From Acidobacteriota bacterium (GTDB lineage Bacteria; Acidobacteriota; UBA6911): DNA of 64,000 nucleotides. The position numbers and the translations under genes are program-made. This document shows positions 12,141-64,000 of this stretch, in pieces (the first letter of the stretch is position 1; every line of letters starts with the position of its first letter). The DNA lies in contig JAFGIY010000037.1 of the NCBI GenBank assembly GCA_016929335.1, forward strand, positions 83,574-147,573, read 5' to 3'. The notes beneath the pieces are model-generated. The model did no database searches and was not told where the DNA came from. It saw only the letters and a list, made by a program, of their open reading frames with translations.

Positions 12141-12887
12141 GTGAAAAAAGTGGTTCTTCTGAGACATGGAGAAAGCGTTTGGAACAAGGAAAATCTATTC
12201 ACCGGTTGGACCGATGTGGGACTCAGTGAAAAGGGCGTCCAGGAAGCAATCGAGGGCGGCAGAGTCCTGCGCGCTGAAGGATATATTTTCGATGTCGCTT
12301 TTACATCCGTGCTGAAGCGCGCAATCAAGACCCTATGGATCGCCCTGGAAGAAATGGACCTTATGTGGATCCCGGTTTACAACAGCTGGCGTTTGAATGA
12401 GAGACACTACGGCGCGCTTCAAGGACTCAACAAAGTGGCGATGGTGGACAAGTTCGGTGCGGCGCAGGTTCAGCTCTGGAGACGCAGCTATGATGTCCGG
12501 CCGCCGGAACTCGAGCCCGGTGATGAACGATCGCCCGCCAAAGATCCCCGTTATGCGGATCTCGATCCGAAGGACATTCCGCTTGCCGAATGTCTCAAGG
12601 ACACCGTGGCGCGTGTTCTTCCCTACTGGCACGAAGTCATCGTACCGGCAATCCAATCGGGGAAGCGGATCCTTGTCTCAGCTCACGGCAACAGCATGCG
12701 GGCTCTGGTGAAATATCTGGACAACGTTCCCGAAAATGAAATTGTGGGACTGAACATACCGACCGGAATTCCCCTGGTCTATGAATTCAACGACGATCTG
12801 ACGCCGATACGCCACTACTATCTCGGCGATCCCGAAGCCATCAGTAAGGCGGTGCAGGCAGTGGCGAATCAAACCAAGAAGAATTGA
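12141..12887 (+). CDS. gpmA: 2,3-bisphosphoglycerate-dependent phosphoglycerate mutase
   Basis: [57 protein letters not shown]. Confidence 0.97.
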
Positions 12888-12960
12888 CGATTTACGATTG
12901 ACGATTTACGATTGAAAACCAAAGTCGATGTTACCATTTGTAAATCGTCAATCGTCAATC
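12884..12960. repeat. Heptamer inverted-arm element
   Basis: Left arm ttgacgatttacgattgacgatttacgattg, core aaaaccaaagtcgatgttaccattt, right arm gtaaatcgtcaatcgtcaatc. Confidence 0.9.
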
Positions 12961-45490: not shown

Positions 45491-45557
45491 GGATAAAGGG
45501 ATTGAGAGGGGTAAAGGGGCAGAGGGGTAGAGGGGTAGAGGGGCAAAGGGACAGAGG
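45491..45557. repeat. Octamer array (ggggtaga/ggggtaaa/ggggcaga)n, left arm
   Basis: ggataaagggattgagaggggtaaaggggcagaggggtagaggggtagaggggcaaagggacagagg immediately after the selB stop. Confidence 0.9.
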
Positions 45558-45560
45558 AAT

Positions 45561-45971
45561 TTAATTAATGGCTTTGGACCTGGTTCTCAAGCTGCGGATT
45601 AATGCATCGAGCATTCTGGTAACTTCCAGCAGCCTTTCAGCAATTTTTGCAGCCTTTTCTGATGTAAGGTATCCAAGACGATCAGCTAATAAAACCTGTG
45701 TTTCAAGCTCTGCGGCTGACCCTGAGGCAATTCGCAGAAATCGGATGTACTCGACTGTACTCCAGCGTTTGTATCCCTCAGCAATGTTATACGCTATCGA
45801 TCTACTCGTTTTACGAAGCTCCGAAGTGAGCCCATATAATTCATGTTTAGGAAATTCGCAGGAAACACGATAAATTCCCACTGACAAATCAAATGCCTTC
45901 TGCCAAACAATCAAATCCTTAAACGTCTTAACCGCGCATCCGCTCACATTCCGCCTCCTCATCACTATCAC
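45561..45971 (-). CDS. Four-helix-bundle protein (S23/intervening-sequence-protein type)
   Basis: VKTFKDLIVWQKAFDLSVGIYRVSCEFPKHELYGLTSELRKTSRSIAYNIAEGYKRWSTVEYIRFLRIASGSAAELETQVLLADRLGYL. Confidence 0.93.
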   Translation of the reverse strand: MIVMRRRNVSGCAVKTFKDLIVWQKAFDLSVGIYRVSCEFPKHELYGLTSELRKTSRSIAYNIAEGYKRWSTVEYIRFLRIASGSAAELETQVLLADRLGYLTSEKAAKIAERLLEVTRMLDALIRSLRTRSKAIN

Positions 45972-46043
45972 CTCTACCCCTTTACCCCTCTGCCCCTCTG
46001 CCCATCTACCCCTTTACCCCTTTACCCCTCTACCCCTTTGTAG
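45970..46043. repeat. Octamer array, right arm (inverted relative to 45491-45557)
   Basis: cacctctacccctttacccctctgcccctctgcccatctacccctttacccctttacccctctacccctttg. Confidence 0.9.
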
Positions 46044-59023: not shown

Positions 59024-60475
59024 ATGGAAAATAACGGCGATTTTACAATCCAAAAGCTTGCTCCACTGATTCGAGGCAAGAAATTATCTCCCGTCGAGCT
59101 TACCCGATTTTTATTGGAACGGATTTCGCGCTTTCAGCAAGAAATCAATGCGTACATCACCATCACTGCTGACACTGCCATGGCGCAGGCAGGAAAGGCT
59201 GAAAAGGAAATCTGTAAAGGCGATTACAGGGGCGTCTTGCACGGCATCCCTATCAGTTTGAAAGATCTGATTTATACCTGCAACGTGCGCACGACTGCAG
59301 GAGCAAAAATCCTACGAAAATTCGTCCCCAAAGAAAATGCAGAACTGGTGAATCGATTGCTGAAGACCGGATGTGTATTTCTGGGAAAAACGAATATGCA
59401 CGAATTCGCCTTTGGTGCCACAAACGTTAATCCTCACTATGGGCCCGTCCACAATCCCTGGGACAGGCGCTGCATCTCCGGAGGCTCAAGCGGCGGCAGC
59501 GCCGCATCCGTTGTTTCAGCCCAGGCTATGGGATCTTTCGGCACCGATACAGGCGGCTCCATCCGCATTCCAGCAGCAGCCTGCGGATGCGTCGGACTCA
59601 AGCCGACATATGGCAGAGTTCCCATGACCGGTGTTATTCCTTTGGCTGTCAGTCTCGATCATGCCGGTCCACTGAGCCGTTGCGTCATGGATGCAGCATT
59701 TTTATTTGAAGCGACAGCAGAACCAAACATATGGGGTTTCAATCCCAAACGGGCAGTTGCCGAAATCGGCAAAGGCATCAAAGATTTCCGGATTGGGATT
59801 CCTCGACAATATTTTTTTGATCGCCTCCAGCCTGCGGTGCGCCGAGCCGTCCTGGCTGCTGCCGCAGTTATTGAGCGGGCAGGCGCAAAAATCGTTGAGG
59901 TAAATTTGGCGGGGATGGACAAGACGGCACAACTGGCGGCCGAAATTACCGCAGATGAAGCCCTGGCTTATCATGAAAAATGGCTGGAGCAGAAATTTAA
60001 GGATTATGGGGAAGATGTTCGATCGCGCCTGGAGTTAAGCAGGAAAGCGACGGCAATTGCATATATACGCGCGCAGCAGGATAGACTTGCCTATTCAGAA
60101 GAAATGTCAAAGACATTGGAGGGCATTCATGTACTCCTGGCGCCGACGCTCCCGGTCGTAGCTCCTCTGATCGATGAGAATGAAGTCAGGATCGGAAGAT
60201 ACTGCGAAGACGTCCGTCTTGCTCTGCTGAGCCTTACTCGACCCGGCAATCTTTCCGGGCTGCCAGCCATTTCGGTTCCTTGCGGATTCTCTGCCGAGGG
60301 GCTTCCCATAGGCTTGCAGCTCATCGGCCGGCGATCCGGCGAAGCTTCGCTTCTGCGCGTCGCCTACGCCTATGAGCAAGCCACCCCCTGGCATCTACAT
60401 TTCCCCCCCGAAATTCAAAAGGAGAGAGGATTGGCGGGAAGCGGGAAGAAAAGGGGTAAAGGGGCAAAGGGGTAG
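59024..60475 (+). CDS. Amidase (amidase-signature family, GatA-like)
   Basis: GVLHGIPISLKDLIYT, GGSSGGSAASV, GSFGTDTGGSIRIPAAACGCVGLKPTYGRVP. Confidence 0.95.
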   Translation: MENNGDFTIQKLAPLIRGKKLSPVELTRFLLERISRFQQEINAYITITADTAMAQAGKAEKEICKGDYRGVLHGIPISLKDLIYTCNVRTTAGAKILRKFVPKENAELVNRLLKTGCVFLGKTNMHEFAFGATNVNPHYGPVHNPWDRRCISGGSSGGSAASVVSAQAMGSFGTDTGGSIRIPAAACGCVGLKPTYGRVPMTGVIPLAVSLDHAGPLSRCVMDAAFLFEATAEPNIWGFNPKRAVAEIGKGIKDFRIGIPRQYFFDRLQPAVRRAVLAAAAVIERAGAKIVEVNLAGMDKTAQLAAEITADEALAYHEKWLEQKFKDYGEDVRSRLELSRKATAIAYIRAQQDRLAYSEEMSKTLEGIHVLLAPTLPVVAPLIDENEVRIGRYCEDVRLALLSLTRPGNLSGLPAISVPCGFSAEGLPIGLQLIGRRSGEASLLRVAYAYEQATPWHLHFPPEIQKERGLAGSGKKRGKGAKG

Positions 60476-60615
60476 AGGAGGAAAGGGAAAGTGAAAATCT
60501 TGATTGGCGTTTTTCTTCTATGCTCATCCTTTATTCCCGTCCCTCCTACCCTTTGCCCCTCTACCCCTTTGCCCTTCCACCCCTCCACCCCTTTATCTCT
60601 TTTCCCCTTTCCCCT
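60448..60615. repeat. Octamer inverted-arm element without ORF (same unit family as 45491-46043)
   Basis: gaaaaggggtaaaggggcaaaggggtagaggagg ... ccctcctaccctttgcccctctacccctttgccc. Confidence 0.88.
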
Positions 60616-60640: not shown

Positions 60641-62275
60641 ATGAAAATAGCCTTGGCTCAGATTAATACGACCGTGGGAGATATTAAGGGCAATCGCGAT
60701 CTGGTTCTGCAGGTCATGGGAAAATCCCGGCTCCTGGGCGCTGATATTGCGGTATTTCCAGAGCTTTGTCTTACGGGATATCCTCCTCGTGACTTGCTTG
60801 GACTTCATGGCTTTGTCGAGTCGAACCTCCAGGCACTCCAGGAAATTGCAGCGTGTTCCGGATCCATGGCTGTAATTCTCGGCTTTGTGGACCGGAATCC
60901 GAAGAAGGAAGGACGCGATTTTTACAACGCCGCCGCGTTTCTTTGTAAAGGCAAGATTCAGGCTGTAGTGCATAAAACGCTTTTGCCTACCTATGACGTA
61001 TTCGATGAGGACAGGTATTTTGATAGCTCCGAGAGCATACAACTGGTGGAATTCAAGGGACGGACTTTGGGAATTTCCATATGTGAGGATGCCTGGAACT
61101 CGGAGTGTTTCTGGCCTAAACCCCACTATTCCACAGATCCGATTCGTACCCAGATCGAGATGGGCGCCAACCTTCTGGTAAATATTTCGGCATCTCCCTA
61201 TGAGATGGGAAAGCCCCGATTCCGATTTCAGATGCTTCTCGACCATGTCCAAAAGCACCATGTACCGCTCGCATACGTCAATCTTGTGGGAGGCAATGAT
61301 GACCTGCTCTTTGACGGCAACAGTCTGTTATTGGGGAAGAATGGAAATGTGATCGCGCAAGGATCGGGCTTTGCAGAAGATCTCCTGGTTGTCGATACAG
61401 AGTCAACCGATAATCGTGGCTATCATGAGAAGGAAAGCATGGATGATTTGTTTCAAGCACTTGTGATGGGCACGCGGGATTACGCCCGCAAATGTGGTTT
61501 CAAATCTGCCGTCCTCGGGCTCAGCGGCGGGATCGATTCTGCTATCGTAGGTTGCATTGCGGTTGAGGCGCTGGGCGCCGGCAATGTGCTGGGAGTGTCG
61601 ATGCCGTCCATGTTTTCCGCGCCCGAGAGCTATGAGGATGCCCGATCGCTCGCACATAATCTGGGCATGTGCTTTGATATGATCCCAATCAAGTCTGTCT
61701 ACGATGCCTTTCGCAAATCCCTTTCAGATATTTTTACCGGCATGTCTGAGAATGAAACTGAAGAGAACCTGCAAGCCCGTATACGAGGAACTCTCCTGAT
61801 GGCATTATCGAATAAACTGGGACATCTTGTGCTCAGCACAGGAAACAAATCGGAATTGGGCGCCGGATATTGCACTTTATATGGAGATATGGTCGGAGGA
61901 TTGGCCGTTATCTCCGACGTGCCCAAGACCATGATTTATAAGCTCGCCGCTCATATCAACAGGCACCGGGAAATAATTCCGCAAAATACCATCAAAAGAG
62001 CTCCTTCCGCAGAGCTGCGTCCCAACCAGAAGGATCAGGATACTCTGCCCGAATACGAAATCCTGGACGGGATTCTGAAGTCGCGCGTCGAAGAGCAGAT
62101 GAACATTGATGAAATCGTAGCGCAGGGATATGAGCGAAAGATCGTTGAAAAAGTGATACGAATGATTCAGGTAAACGAGTATAAGAGACGACAGGCTGCT
62201 ATCGGGCTCAAAGTGACTACTCGAGCCTTCGGAACAGGCCGCCGCATGCCCATTGCGATGAAGCTGAATCCGTAG
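60641..62275 (+). CDS. nadE: Glutamine-dependent NAD+ synthetase
   Basis: Nitrilase domain PELCLTGYPPRDLL, VVHKTLLPTYDVFDEDRYF; synthetase GLSGGIDSAIVGCIA, STGNKSELGAGYCTLYGDMVGG. Confidence 0.97.
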   Translation: MKIALAQINTTVGDIKGNRDLVLQVMGKSRLLGADIAVFPELCLTGYPPRDLLGLHGFVESNLQALQEIAACSGSMAVILGFVDRNPKKEGRDFYNAAAFLCKGKIQAVVHKTLLPTYDVFDEDRYFDSSESIQLVEFKGRTLGISICEDAWNSECFWPKPHYSTDPIRTQIEMGANLLVNISASPYEMGKPRFRFQMLLDHVQKHHVPLAYVNLVGGNDDLLFDGNSLLLGKNGNVIAQGSGFAEDLLVVDTESTDNRGYHEKESMDDLFQALVMGTRDYARKCGFKSAVLGLSGGIDSAIVGCIAVEALGAGNVLGVSMPSMFSAPESYEDARSLAHNLGMCFDMIPIKSVYDAFRKSLSDIFTGMSENETEENLQARIRGTLLMALSNKLGHLVLSTGNKSELGAGYCTLYGDMVGGLAVISDVPKTMIYKLAAHINRHREIIPQNTIKRAPSAELRPNQKDQDTLPEYEILDGILKSRVEEQMNIDEIVAQGYERKIVEKVIRMIQVNEYKRRQAAIGLKVTTRAFGTGRRMPIAMKLNP

Positions 62276-62377
62276 TCGGCAGTCGGCAAAAAAGTATATG
62301 AGCGAAATTATTGAAAATTTGGCAATTTTTATATTCGAAAAATATTTACTGCCGACTGCCGACTGCCGACTGCCGAC
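62273..62377. repeat. Heptamer inverted-arm element, copy 1 (tcggcag arms)
   Basis: tagtcggcagtcggca, AT-rich core 62288-62348, right arm (ctgccga)4. Confidence 0.92.
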
Positions 62378-62391
62378 CATTGGAGGATACT

Positions 62392-63831
62392 GTGGCGTAT
62401 ACGCGCGCTCTACTGACAGACTTTTATGAACTGACTATGGCTGCAGGATATCTCGAACAGGGGAAAGAGTCCGATACAGCCACTTTTGACCTGTACTTCA
62501 GACATAATCCGTTTAATGGAGGCTATGCGATCGCTGCCGGGTTGGAAGACGCTATTCACGCGGTGGTGGATGCAAGATTCAGCGAAGAGGATATCCATTT
62601 TTTAAAAGCTCTCAAATCATCCACGGGCAAGCGGATCTTCTCGGATAAATTCCTGAATTATCTTGCAGAATACAATTTTGGCGGCAATATCCGGGCTATT
62701 CCCGAAGGTTCAGTGGTGTTCCCTAATGAACCGCTGTTGCAGGCAAGCGGAAACCTTATTGAGTGCCAAATGGTTGAGACAGTGCTGCTTTGTCATATTA
62801 ATTTCCAGACGCTTGTTGCGACCAAAGCCGCCCGGATATGGGAAGCATCTCATTATGGTAATGTCGTGGAGTTTGGGCTGCGCCGCGCACAGGGACCGGA
62901 TGGGGCTTTGGGAGCGTGCCGTGCTGCCTTCATAGGAGGGACGGACAGCACATCCAATGTCCTGGGAGCCGCGCTTCTACGGATGCCTGCAAAGGGGACT
63001 CATGCTCACAGCTGGATCCAATCGTTCGGATCCGAGCTTGACGCTTTTCGCGCCTTTGCACGATCATTCCCCGATGAATGCATCCTTCTGGTAGACACTT
63101 ACGACACCCTGAAAAGCGGTGTGCCTAATGCGATCCTGACTGCCAAAGAGCTCGAGCAGAGAGGACATCGGCTCGTGGGCATCCGGATTGATAGCGGGGA
63201 TCTGGCGTTTCTGAGCCAGAGAGCGCGGCAGATGCTGGACCGGGAAAATCTGTCGTATGTAAAAATAGTCGCTTCCAACGAACTCGATGAATACATCATT
63301 TCAGACATTCTCGCCCAGGAAGGGAAAGTCGACATCTGGGGAGTCGGAACCAATCTGGTAACGGGCGCGGGGATTGGAGGCGGAGCCCTGGGCGGCATCT
63401 ATAAAATGGTTGAGCATAACGGCCAGCCCAAGATTAAATTAAGCGCCAATCCCGAAAAGATGACTAATCCGGGGATTAAAAAGATCATCCGGTACTATAG
63501 CGATGAAGGTCTGATGGAAGCCGACGCTCTTGCCGCCGATTGGGAGAATGCGGAAGCCCAGGGTGTCCTCATCGTCGATCCCAATAATCCTTTACGTCGC
63601 AAAAAGCTGGATTCGGCACGGCATACAGAACTACTGAAGACGATTGTAAAATCCGGAAGGATTGTATATGAGTTCCCTTCCATAGAAGAAATTAGGAACC
63701 ACCGGAAAGAAGAGCTCTCCCGGCTCCATGAAAGCCACAAACGGCTTCATAATCCTCATGAATATAAAGTCGGACTAACCTATGAACTGTGGCAGCAAAA
63801 AGAACACATGCTTAATCAGGCCACTGTTTAG
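62392..63831 (+). CDS. pncB: Nicotinate phosphoribosyltransferase
   Basis: LLTDFYELTMAAGYLEQG, FGLRRAQGPDGALGACRAAFIGGTDSTSNV, VGIRIDSGDLAFLS; GTG start at 62392 with ggagg upstream preferred over the called 62311 start. Confidence 0.95.
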   Translation: MAYTRALLTDFYELTMAAGYLEQGKESDTATFDLYFRHNPFNGGYAIAAGLEDAIHAVVDARFSEEDIHFLKALKSSTGKRIFSDKFLNYLAEYNFGGNIRAIPEGSVVFPNEPLLQASGNLIECQMVETVLLCHINFQTLVATKAARIWEASHYGNVVEFGLRRAQGPDGALGACRAAFIGGTDSTSNVLGAALLRMPAKGTHAHSWIQSFGSELDAFRAFARSFPDECILLVDTYDTLKSGVPNAILTAKELEQRGHRLVGIRIDSGDLAFLSQRARQMLDRENLSYVKIVASNELDEYIISDILAQEGKVDIWGVGTNLVTGAGIGGGALGGIYKMVEHNGQPKIKLSANPEKMTNPGIKKIIRYYSDEGLMEADALAADWENAEAQGVLIVDPNNPLRRKKLDSARHTELLKTIVKSGRIVYEFPSIEEIRNHRKEELSRLHESHKRLHNPHEYKVGLTYELWQQKEHMLNQATV

Positions 63832-64000
63832 TCGGCAGTCGGCGGTCGTTAGTCGGCAGTAAAAGTAAATGAGGGAAATCATTGAAAATTCGGAAATTTT
63901 GATATCTGAAAAATACCGACTACCGACTACCGACTACCGACTACCGACTACCGACTACCGACTACCGACTACCGACTACCGACTACCGACTACCGACTAC
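63829..64000. repeat. Heptamer inverted-arm element, copy 2, truncated by window end
   Basis: tagtcggcagtcggcggtcgttagtcggcagt, core 63861-63915, right arm (ccgacta)12+ from 63916 to window end. Confidence 0.93.

Follow-up and report, generated by a model that had tools for sequence, protein, structure and literature searches.

What are the two heptamer-armed sequences that lie on either side of the pncB gene of an Acidobacteriota genome, and what defines them: the core that they share, or the tandem arms that enclose it? The question is raised by a 64,000-nt stretch of DNA (here called the window) from an Acidobacteriota bacterium (UBA6911; GCA_016929335.1, contig JAFGIY010000037.1, positions 83,574-147,573, forward strand), whose genome is a 6.5-Mb MAG with 6.3% contamination. 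The original prediction for this locus was of a defined dispersed element with a variable number of heptamers in its arms and a conserved, structured core of about 55 bp. On the evidence set out below, the variable-number arms are dispersed and the conserved structured core is not.

Both elements are found where they had been placed, flanking pncB, and each begins at the stop codon of the preceding gene. The first follows a gene for a nadE-like glutamine-dependent NAD synthetase (60641-62275, + strand; identified from its translation and from orthologues in relatives), whose TAG stop (62273-62275) overlaps the first unit of the left arm. That arm consists of two AGTCGGC units lying directly at the stop (62274-62287, + strand) and is followed by an AT-rich spacer, the core (62288-62347, no strand assigned), with homology to the core of element 2 only. 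The right arm (62348-62378) reads ACT and then four GCCGACT units, the last of them GCCGACC, and so carries AGTCGGC on the - strand; its end lies 3 bp upstream of the GGAGG (62382-62386) of the next gene, a pncB-like nicotinate phosphoribosyltransferase with a GTG start (62392-63831, + strand; identified from its translation and from relatives). The TAG stop of pncB (63829-63831) in turn overlaps the first unit of the left arm of element 2 (63830-63860, + strand). Inverted heptamer arms are thus present on both elements, but this left arm is not the clean TAGTCGG array once read there: it comprises four degenerate units, AGTCGGC, AGTCGGC, GGTCGTT and AGTCGGC, followed by AGT. The second core (63861-63913, no strand assigned) is identical to the first at 47 of 55 positions, and the right arm (63914-64000, - strand) holds 12.4 TACCGAC units before it is cut by the end of the contig.

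The window therefore ends, with its contig (C61), inside the right array of element 2. A second contig, C158, has 14 TACCGAC-type units at its very start; the gene next to them is convergent and resembles that for protein-L-isoaspartate methyltransferase (pcm). Since pcm is the gene after pncB in a relative (locus L083), C158 is very probably the continuation of C61 across element 2. Contigs C61, C158, C35, C229 and C135 all begin or end in or near heptamer arrays; such arrays are probably a cause of assembly breaks and would explain some of the contig ends in these genomes.

The likeness of the two cores is as close as had been claimed. A hand count over 55 positions gives 8 differences and no indel, BLAST aligns them at 85.7% over 42 bp, and the local alignment score of 38 compares with a mean of 8.6 and a maximum of 16 in 5000 shuffles, indicating homology and not chance. 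Outside the elements, identity in the flanks is 0.20 and 0.35. That the homology stops at the element ends points to copying or gene conversion of the element itself, not to a segmental duplication.

The predicted dispersal of the core did not hold up. A core search of the genome returned no third copy; it was an insensitive search, missing copy 2 as well, and sites were therefore located by their arms and their cores compared directly. Only the pncB pair proved to be related, the other similarities among cores of arm-bearing sites being residual heptamers or short chance matches. A joint search with the cores of 14 other sites likewise gave no dispersed copies, with the exception of one core on contig C105, inside which lies an interspersed repeat of another, unrelated kind that is present about 40 times in the genome. 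The core was therefore rejected as a dispersed element: it is confined to the pncB pair, as a local duplication with neither further copies nor covariation, and it is the arms that form a genome-wide family. Two individual sites deserve mention. At L029 (G000:C105:41583-41810), the interspersed repeat, of about 110-150 bp (GTAGCGGCTTCAGCCGCGAC...), sits inside a heptamer-armed element and has the short core of that element on either side. L020 (G000:C10:44834-45194) is a composite in which each half of the core is tandemly duplicated between heptamer arms, suggesting that it arose via recombination through the arms.

How widespread, then, are the arms? Motif-based detection around the known unit classes located at least 31 distinct sites of the AGTCGGC class in the genome, with the layout (AGTCGGC)n AGT - core - ACT (GCCGACT)n. 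The arm search gave 60 scored matches at E ≤ 0.001 among the matches listed, and the arm pattern was found, again among the matches listed, 340 times at up to three mismatches compared with 159 for a reversed-pattern control, and 117 times compared with 13 at up to one mismatch. In a set of 60 arms of at least three units each, the anatomy is regular: 31 of the 60 have exactly four units, all 60 have a pyrimidine (C or T) before the first AGT, the flank beyond position -2 is near random, and 83-90% have their inner boundary directly after an AGT. Four is the commonest number again in the AGTCGGG arms of genome G028 (13 of 21) and the AGTCGGT arms of G045 (11 of 24), within an overall range of 2 to 21 units per arm.

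AGTCGGC is not the most abundant class in the genome. GATTGAC units, in arms of four to five and often around cores shorter than 25 bp, gave 156 forward and 156 reverse matches among those listed, with 0 and 8 in the control; within the window, there is a full inverted pair of this class at 12883-12960 and a single arm at 1896-1930. A motif-blind scan for periods of 5-12, covering 464 kb of this genome and 400 kb of G045 with Markov controls, showed that period 7 dominates both arrays and inverted pairs in the two genomes. It recovered four inverted pairs in the former sample and ten in the latter compared with none in the controls, together with further unit classes (GATTCGA, GAGTGAT, GGATACA, AAGGCAA and others) in similar arms of four to five units. 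Octamer pairs were few. Two of them lie within the window: an inverted element directly upstream of nadE (60450-60615; AAAGGGGT... / CCCTTTAC..., spacer of about 53 bp), whose G-rich arm comes first as in the heptamer pairs, and a larger one (45505-46037) with a 413-bp spacer. In intergenic regions of the relative G028 (loci L142-L161), several different heptamer arrays are nested in one another: AGTCGGG is outermost, and arrays of the GGACTTT or GCCAACT type lie within it or next to it.

The pairs have a fixed polarity, with the G-rich arm first and the C-rich arm second. AGTCGGC pairs take this orientation over the opposite one by 16 to 0, pairs in G045 by 9 to 0 and GATTGAC pairs by 23 to 2, the two exceptions being gaps between neighbouring elements. 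Of the 22 motif-blind pairs with a G/C difference, 20 have more G than C in the left arm (P = 6e-5). A hairpin alone does not require this polarity.

Position is similarly constrained. With genes called by a simple codon-usage method, almost all sites are intergenic and few or none lie inside genes, in sampled DNA of which 79% is coding; elements often span the interval from a stop codon to the ribosome-binding site of the next gene. Arms facing a stop within 30 bp make up 14 of 31 for AGTCGGC and 25 of 30 for GATTGAC. TAG accounts for 14 of the 25 stops that face AGTCGGC arms (28% in the background, P = 0.003) and TGA for 18 of the 29 that face GATTGAC arms (34% in the background, P = 0.002), and these excesses imply that the upstream gene often takes its stop from the array itself. 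Convergent genes flank 9 of 26 classified sites, compared with 25 of 207 background gaps.

Among relatives, the elements are found only patchily. The relatives of the window are uncultivated Acidobacteriota, and the gap between nadE and pncB is 2-33 bp in most of those with synteny, indicating that element 1 is an addition. In the congener G008 (L083), the gap contains a GATTGAA-armed element starting at the nadE stop (seen by eye, with the pair recovered in the motif-blind scan); by eye, a short GATTGAC-type element apparently occupies it at L084, and at L085 the gap is longer with no arrays. The GATTGAC class is rich in G000, G001, G011 and G031 and absent from most congeners, and CCGACTN arrays recur in G028 and G045, which belong to other families. 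Exact long arrays of the two classes occur in 8 and 22 stretches of viral contigs. A phage or plasmid vehicle was nevertheless rejected: the viral GATTGAC arrays are single and not paired, and a plasmid search for arrays gave no match, in a BLAST run whose low-complexity filter may have masked the query.

The anatomy of these elements, their fixed terminal phase and polarity, their intergenic position, the overlap with stop codons and the patchy distribution are direct observations. The rules that they embody (terminal phase, four units, polarity, a stop inside the array, patchiness) restrict the possible origins and make a search for the factor responsible practical. The reading that we favour, to which we would give an even chance, is that the two pncB copies are members of a class of paired intergenic heptamer arrays, found genome-wide, that has spread as an arm-bounded element. 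Such an element consists of inward-pointing arrays, typically of four 7-mers per side, around a spacer that differs at almost every site; the arms would be the unit that a putative sequence-specific factor recognises and spreads, and the spacer would be passive. Insertions would persist in the short stretch that separates a stop codon from the next ribosome-binding site, with the first heptamers often providing the stop, after which unit number would drift by slippage and the arms might sometimes be re-copied from each other via a hairpin or cruciform. At pncB itself, one element may have been copied, or gene-converted through its arms, into the neighbouring gap 1.5 kb away. Once transcribed, the arms would fold into a long hairpin that lacks a U-tract, and its likely effect on the host is that of a tolerated 3'-end or intercistronic structure and not of an intrinsic terminator.

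Several results bear on the means of such spread. Cores are almost never common to sites, which counts against a copy-and-paste element, where shared cores would be expected. No target-site duplication was evident by eye in the site flanks inspected; the nearest relatives share about 73% protein identity. The two Y1-transposase matches and the reverse-transcriptase matches in the genome have no period-7 or period-8 arrays nearby, and no cognate enzyme was found.

Could the arrays instead have grown where they stand? On this account, chance repeats at the edges of gaps would lengthen in steps of seven by polymerase slippage, and the intergenic position and the overlap with stop codons would merely be what selection allows to survive. 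The wide range of unit number fits, as does the local growth of variant units, TACCGAC being found only in the right arm of element 2, and a link between heptamer bias and the polymerase footprint has been reported as a hypothesis (Rehm et al. 2015, PMC4692102). Slippage would not, however, be expected to give a fixed start and end phase, a sharp mode at four units or a fixed pair polarity, nor to place one unit class in distant genomes whilst leaving it absent from congeners. We regard neutral slippage with selection as a serious but somewhat unlikely explanation.

A selected regulatory site, in which the four tandem heptamers would be binding sites for a protein, as has been suggested for IHF/HU in Geobacter metallireducens, or the pair would form a hairpin at the 3' end of an mRNA, at gene ends in either case, seems to us unlikely. 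It draws on the preference for four units, on placement at stop codons and between convergent genes, and on the annotation of Geobacter sites of equal layout as predicted global regulator sites. For element 1, a strong RNA hairpin is predicted (-41.1 kcal/mol, z = -7.8). The signature of a terminator is absent, however: there is no U-tract and no terminator-like site is predicted at either element, and an intrinsic terminator was rejected. In addition, the nadE-pncB gap of relatives either lacks an element or has one of another class.

Most arms of one element do not covary, which counts against such a site. For AGTCGGC, arms of the same element match each other no better than arms of different elements by best local score (P = 0.34), with P values of 0.02, 0.11 and 0.33 by three other measures (all uncorrected); for GATTGAC the effect is weak (P = 0.02 to 0.42, uncorrected). 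Strong covariation is mostly ruled out by these figures, and a within-element match that is for the most part no better than that between elements argues against strong selection on the hairpin. The exception, and a point in favour of a regulatory site, lies in rare unit variants common to both arms, of which GATTGAC elements have three where 0.38 were expected (P = 0.003); the four seen for AGTCGGC, where 1.9 were expected, are not significant (P = 0.10). On occasion, then, one arm is copied from the other or the two stay in step, but for the most part arms drift.

From polarity and phase comes a further idea, which we consider very improbable: that an enzyme adds heptamer repeats to the two 3' ends exposed where DNA breaks or is inserted into, the spacer being filler DNA. 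Much as when two telomeres fuse, the G-rich strand would extend each flank inward. If true, this would explain the fixed polarity, the starting phase, the unit shared by both arms, the unrelated cores and the many unit classes, and would mean that bacteria have an activity that adds repeats in the manner of telomerase or from an RNA template.

There remains the core as a structure. Neither core alone folds better than its shuffles (z = -0.58 and -0.75), and a search of the window against Rfam gave no match; a structured RNA was rejected for the core. The small stem first noted (AAAATT/AATTTT) is present in the sequence, but it is unchanged between the copies and so provides no covariation; of the compensatory changes sought there are none. 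That the 55-bp core defines a structured RNA element dispersed through the genome, as two homologous cores in the same orientation had suggested, is thus extremely unlikely, there being no third core, significant fold, Rfam match in the window or compensatory change.

The favoured reading of an arm-bounded class of paired arrays can be set against systems already described. Like REP/BIME palindromes and MITEs, these are dispersed intergenic palindromic repeats near gene ends. Neither category applies: the termini are Y-AGT at both ends, with no GTAG/CGTC tag and no arrays beside the two Y1 matches (against REP/RAYT), and the conserved internal sequence of a MITE is absent, since cores other than those at pncB have nothing in common beyond short remnants of arm sequence. 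The TAACTGA direct repeats of Beggiatoaceae are also intergenic heptamer arrays with a patchy distribution across phyla, including cyanobacteria and Bacteroidetes (MacGregor 2015, PMC4679880), but most of them stand singly, immediately before a start codon, with one inverted repeat only reported in the main genome, whereas ours are paired.

Much closer are the heptameric repeats of Xanthomonas and Nostoc (GGGAATC and GGGGA(C/T)T; Rehm et al. 2015, PMC4692102). In Xanthomonas these have period 7, a clear preference for four units and an intergenic position near stop codons, with 70-75 convergent inverted pairs per genome; the G-rich strand is sense after a stop or antisense before an ORF, the polarity also seen here. 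The 7-bp unit, the preference for four, the inverted pairs of one polarity and the intergenic position near stops are all found here. There are two differences. The Xanthomonas units contain GGG tracts and form G-quadruplexes in vitro, whereas AGTCGGC has only GG and GATTGAC neither, and we have therefore not filed them as G-quadruplex repeats. The Xanthomonas sites are mostly common to sister species, whereas those described here are patchy in a comparison of distant relatives.

A second close parallel is Geobacter metallireducens, where tandem octa- and heptanucleotides were annotated as classes 1-3 of predicted global regulator binding sites (Aklujkar et al. 2009, PMC2700814). These have three to five tandem units of 7-8 bp, and sites of classes 1 and 2 form pairs, one member on each strand, with variable spacing; binding of IHF/HU is those authors' suggestion. 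Here too, arrays of about four units are paired across the two strands with variable spacing; the unit sequences differ. A search of the literature for such repeats in Acidobacteria, and for heptamers placed at stop codons, found nothing closer. The pncB elements are therefore of a kind already described, paired heptamer repeats with the layout seen in Xanthomonas and G. metallireducens, and paired arrays of about four heptamers are now known from Xanthomonas, Geobacter and Acidobacteriota, with different units and one layout.
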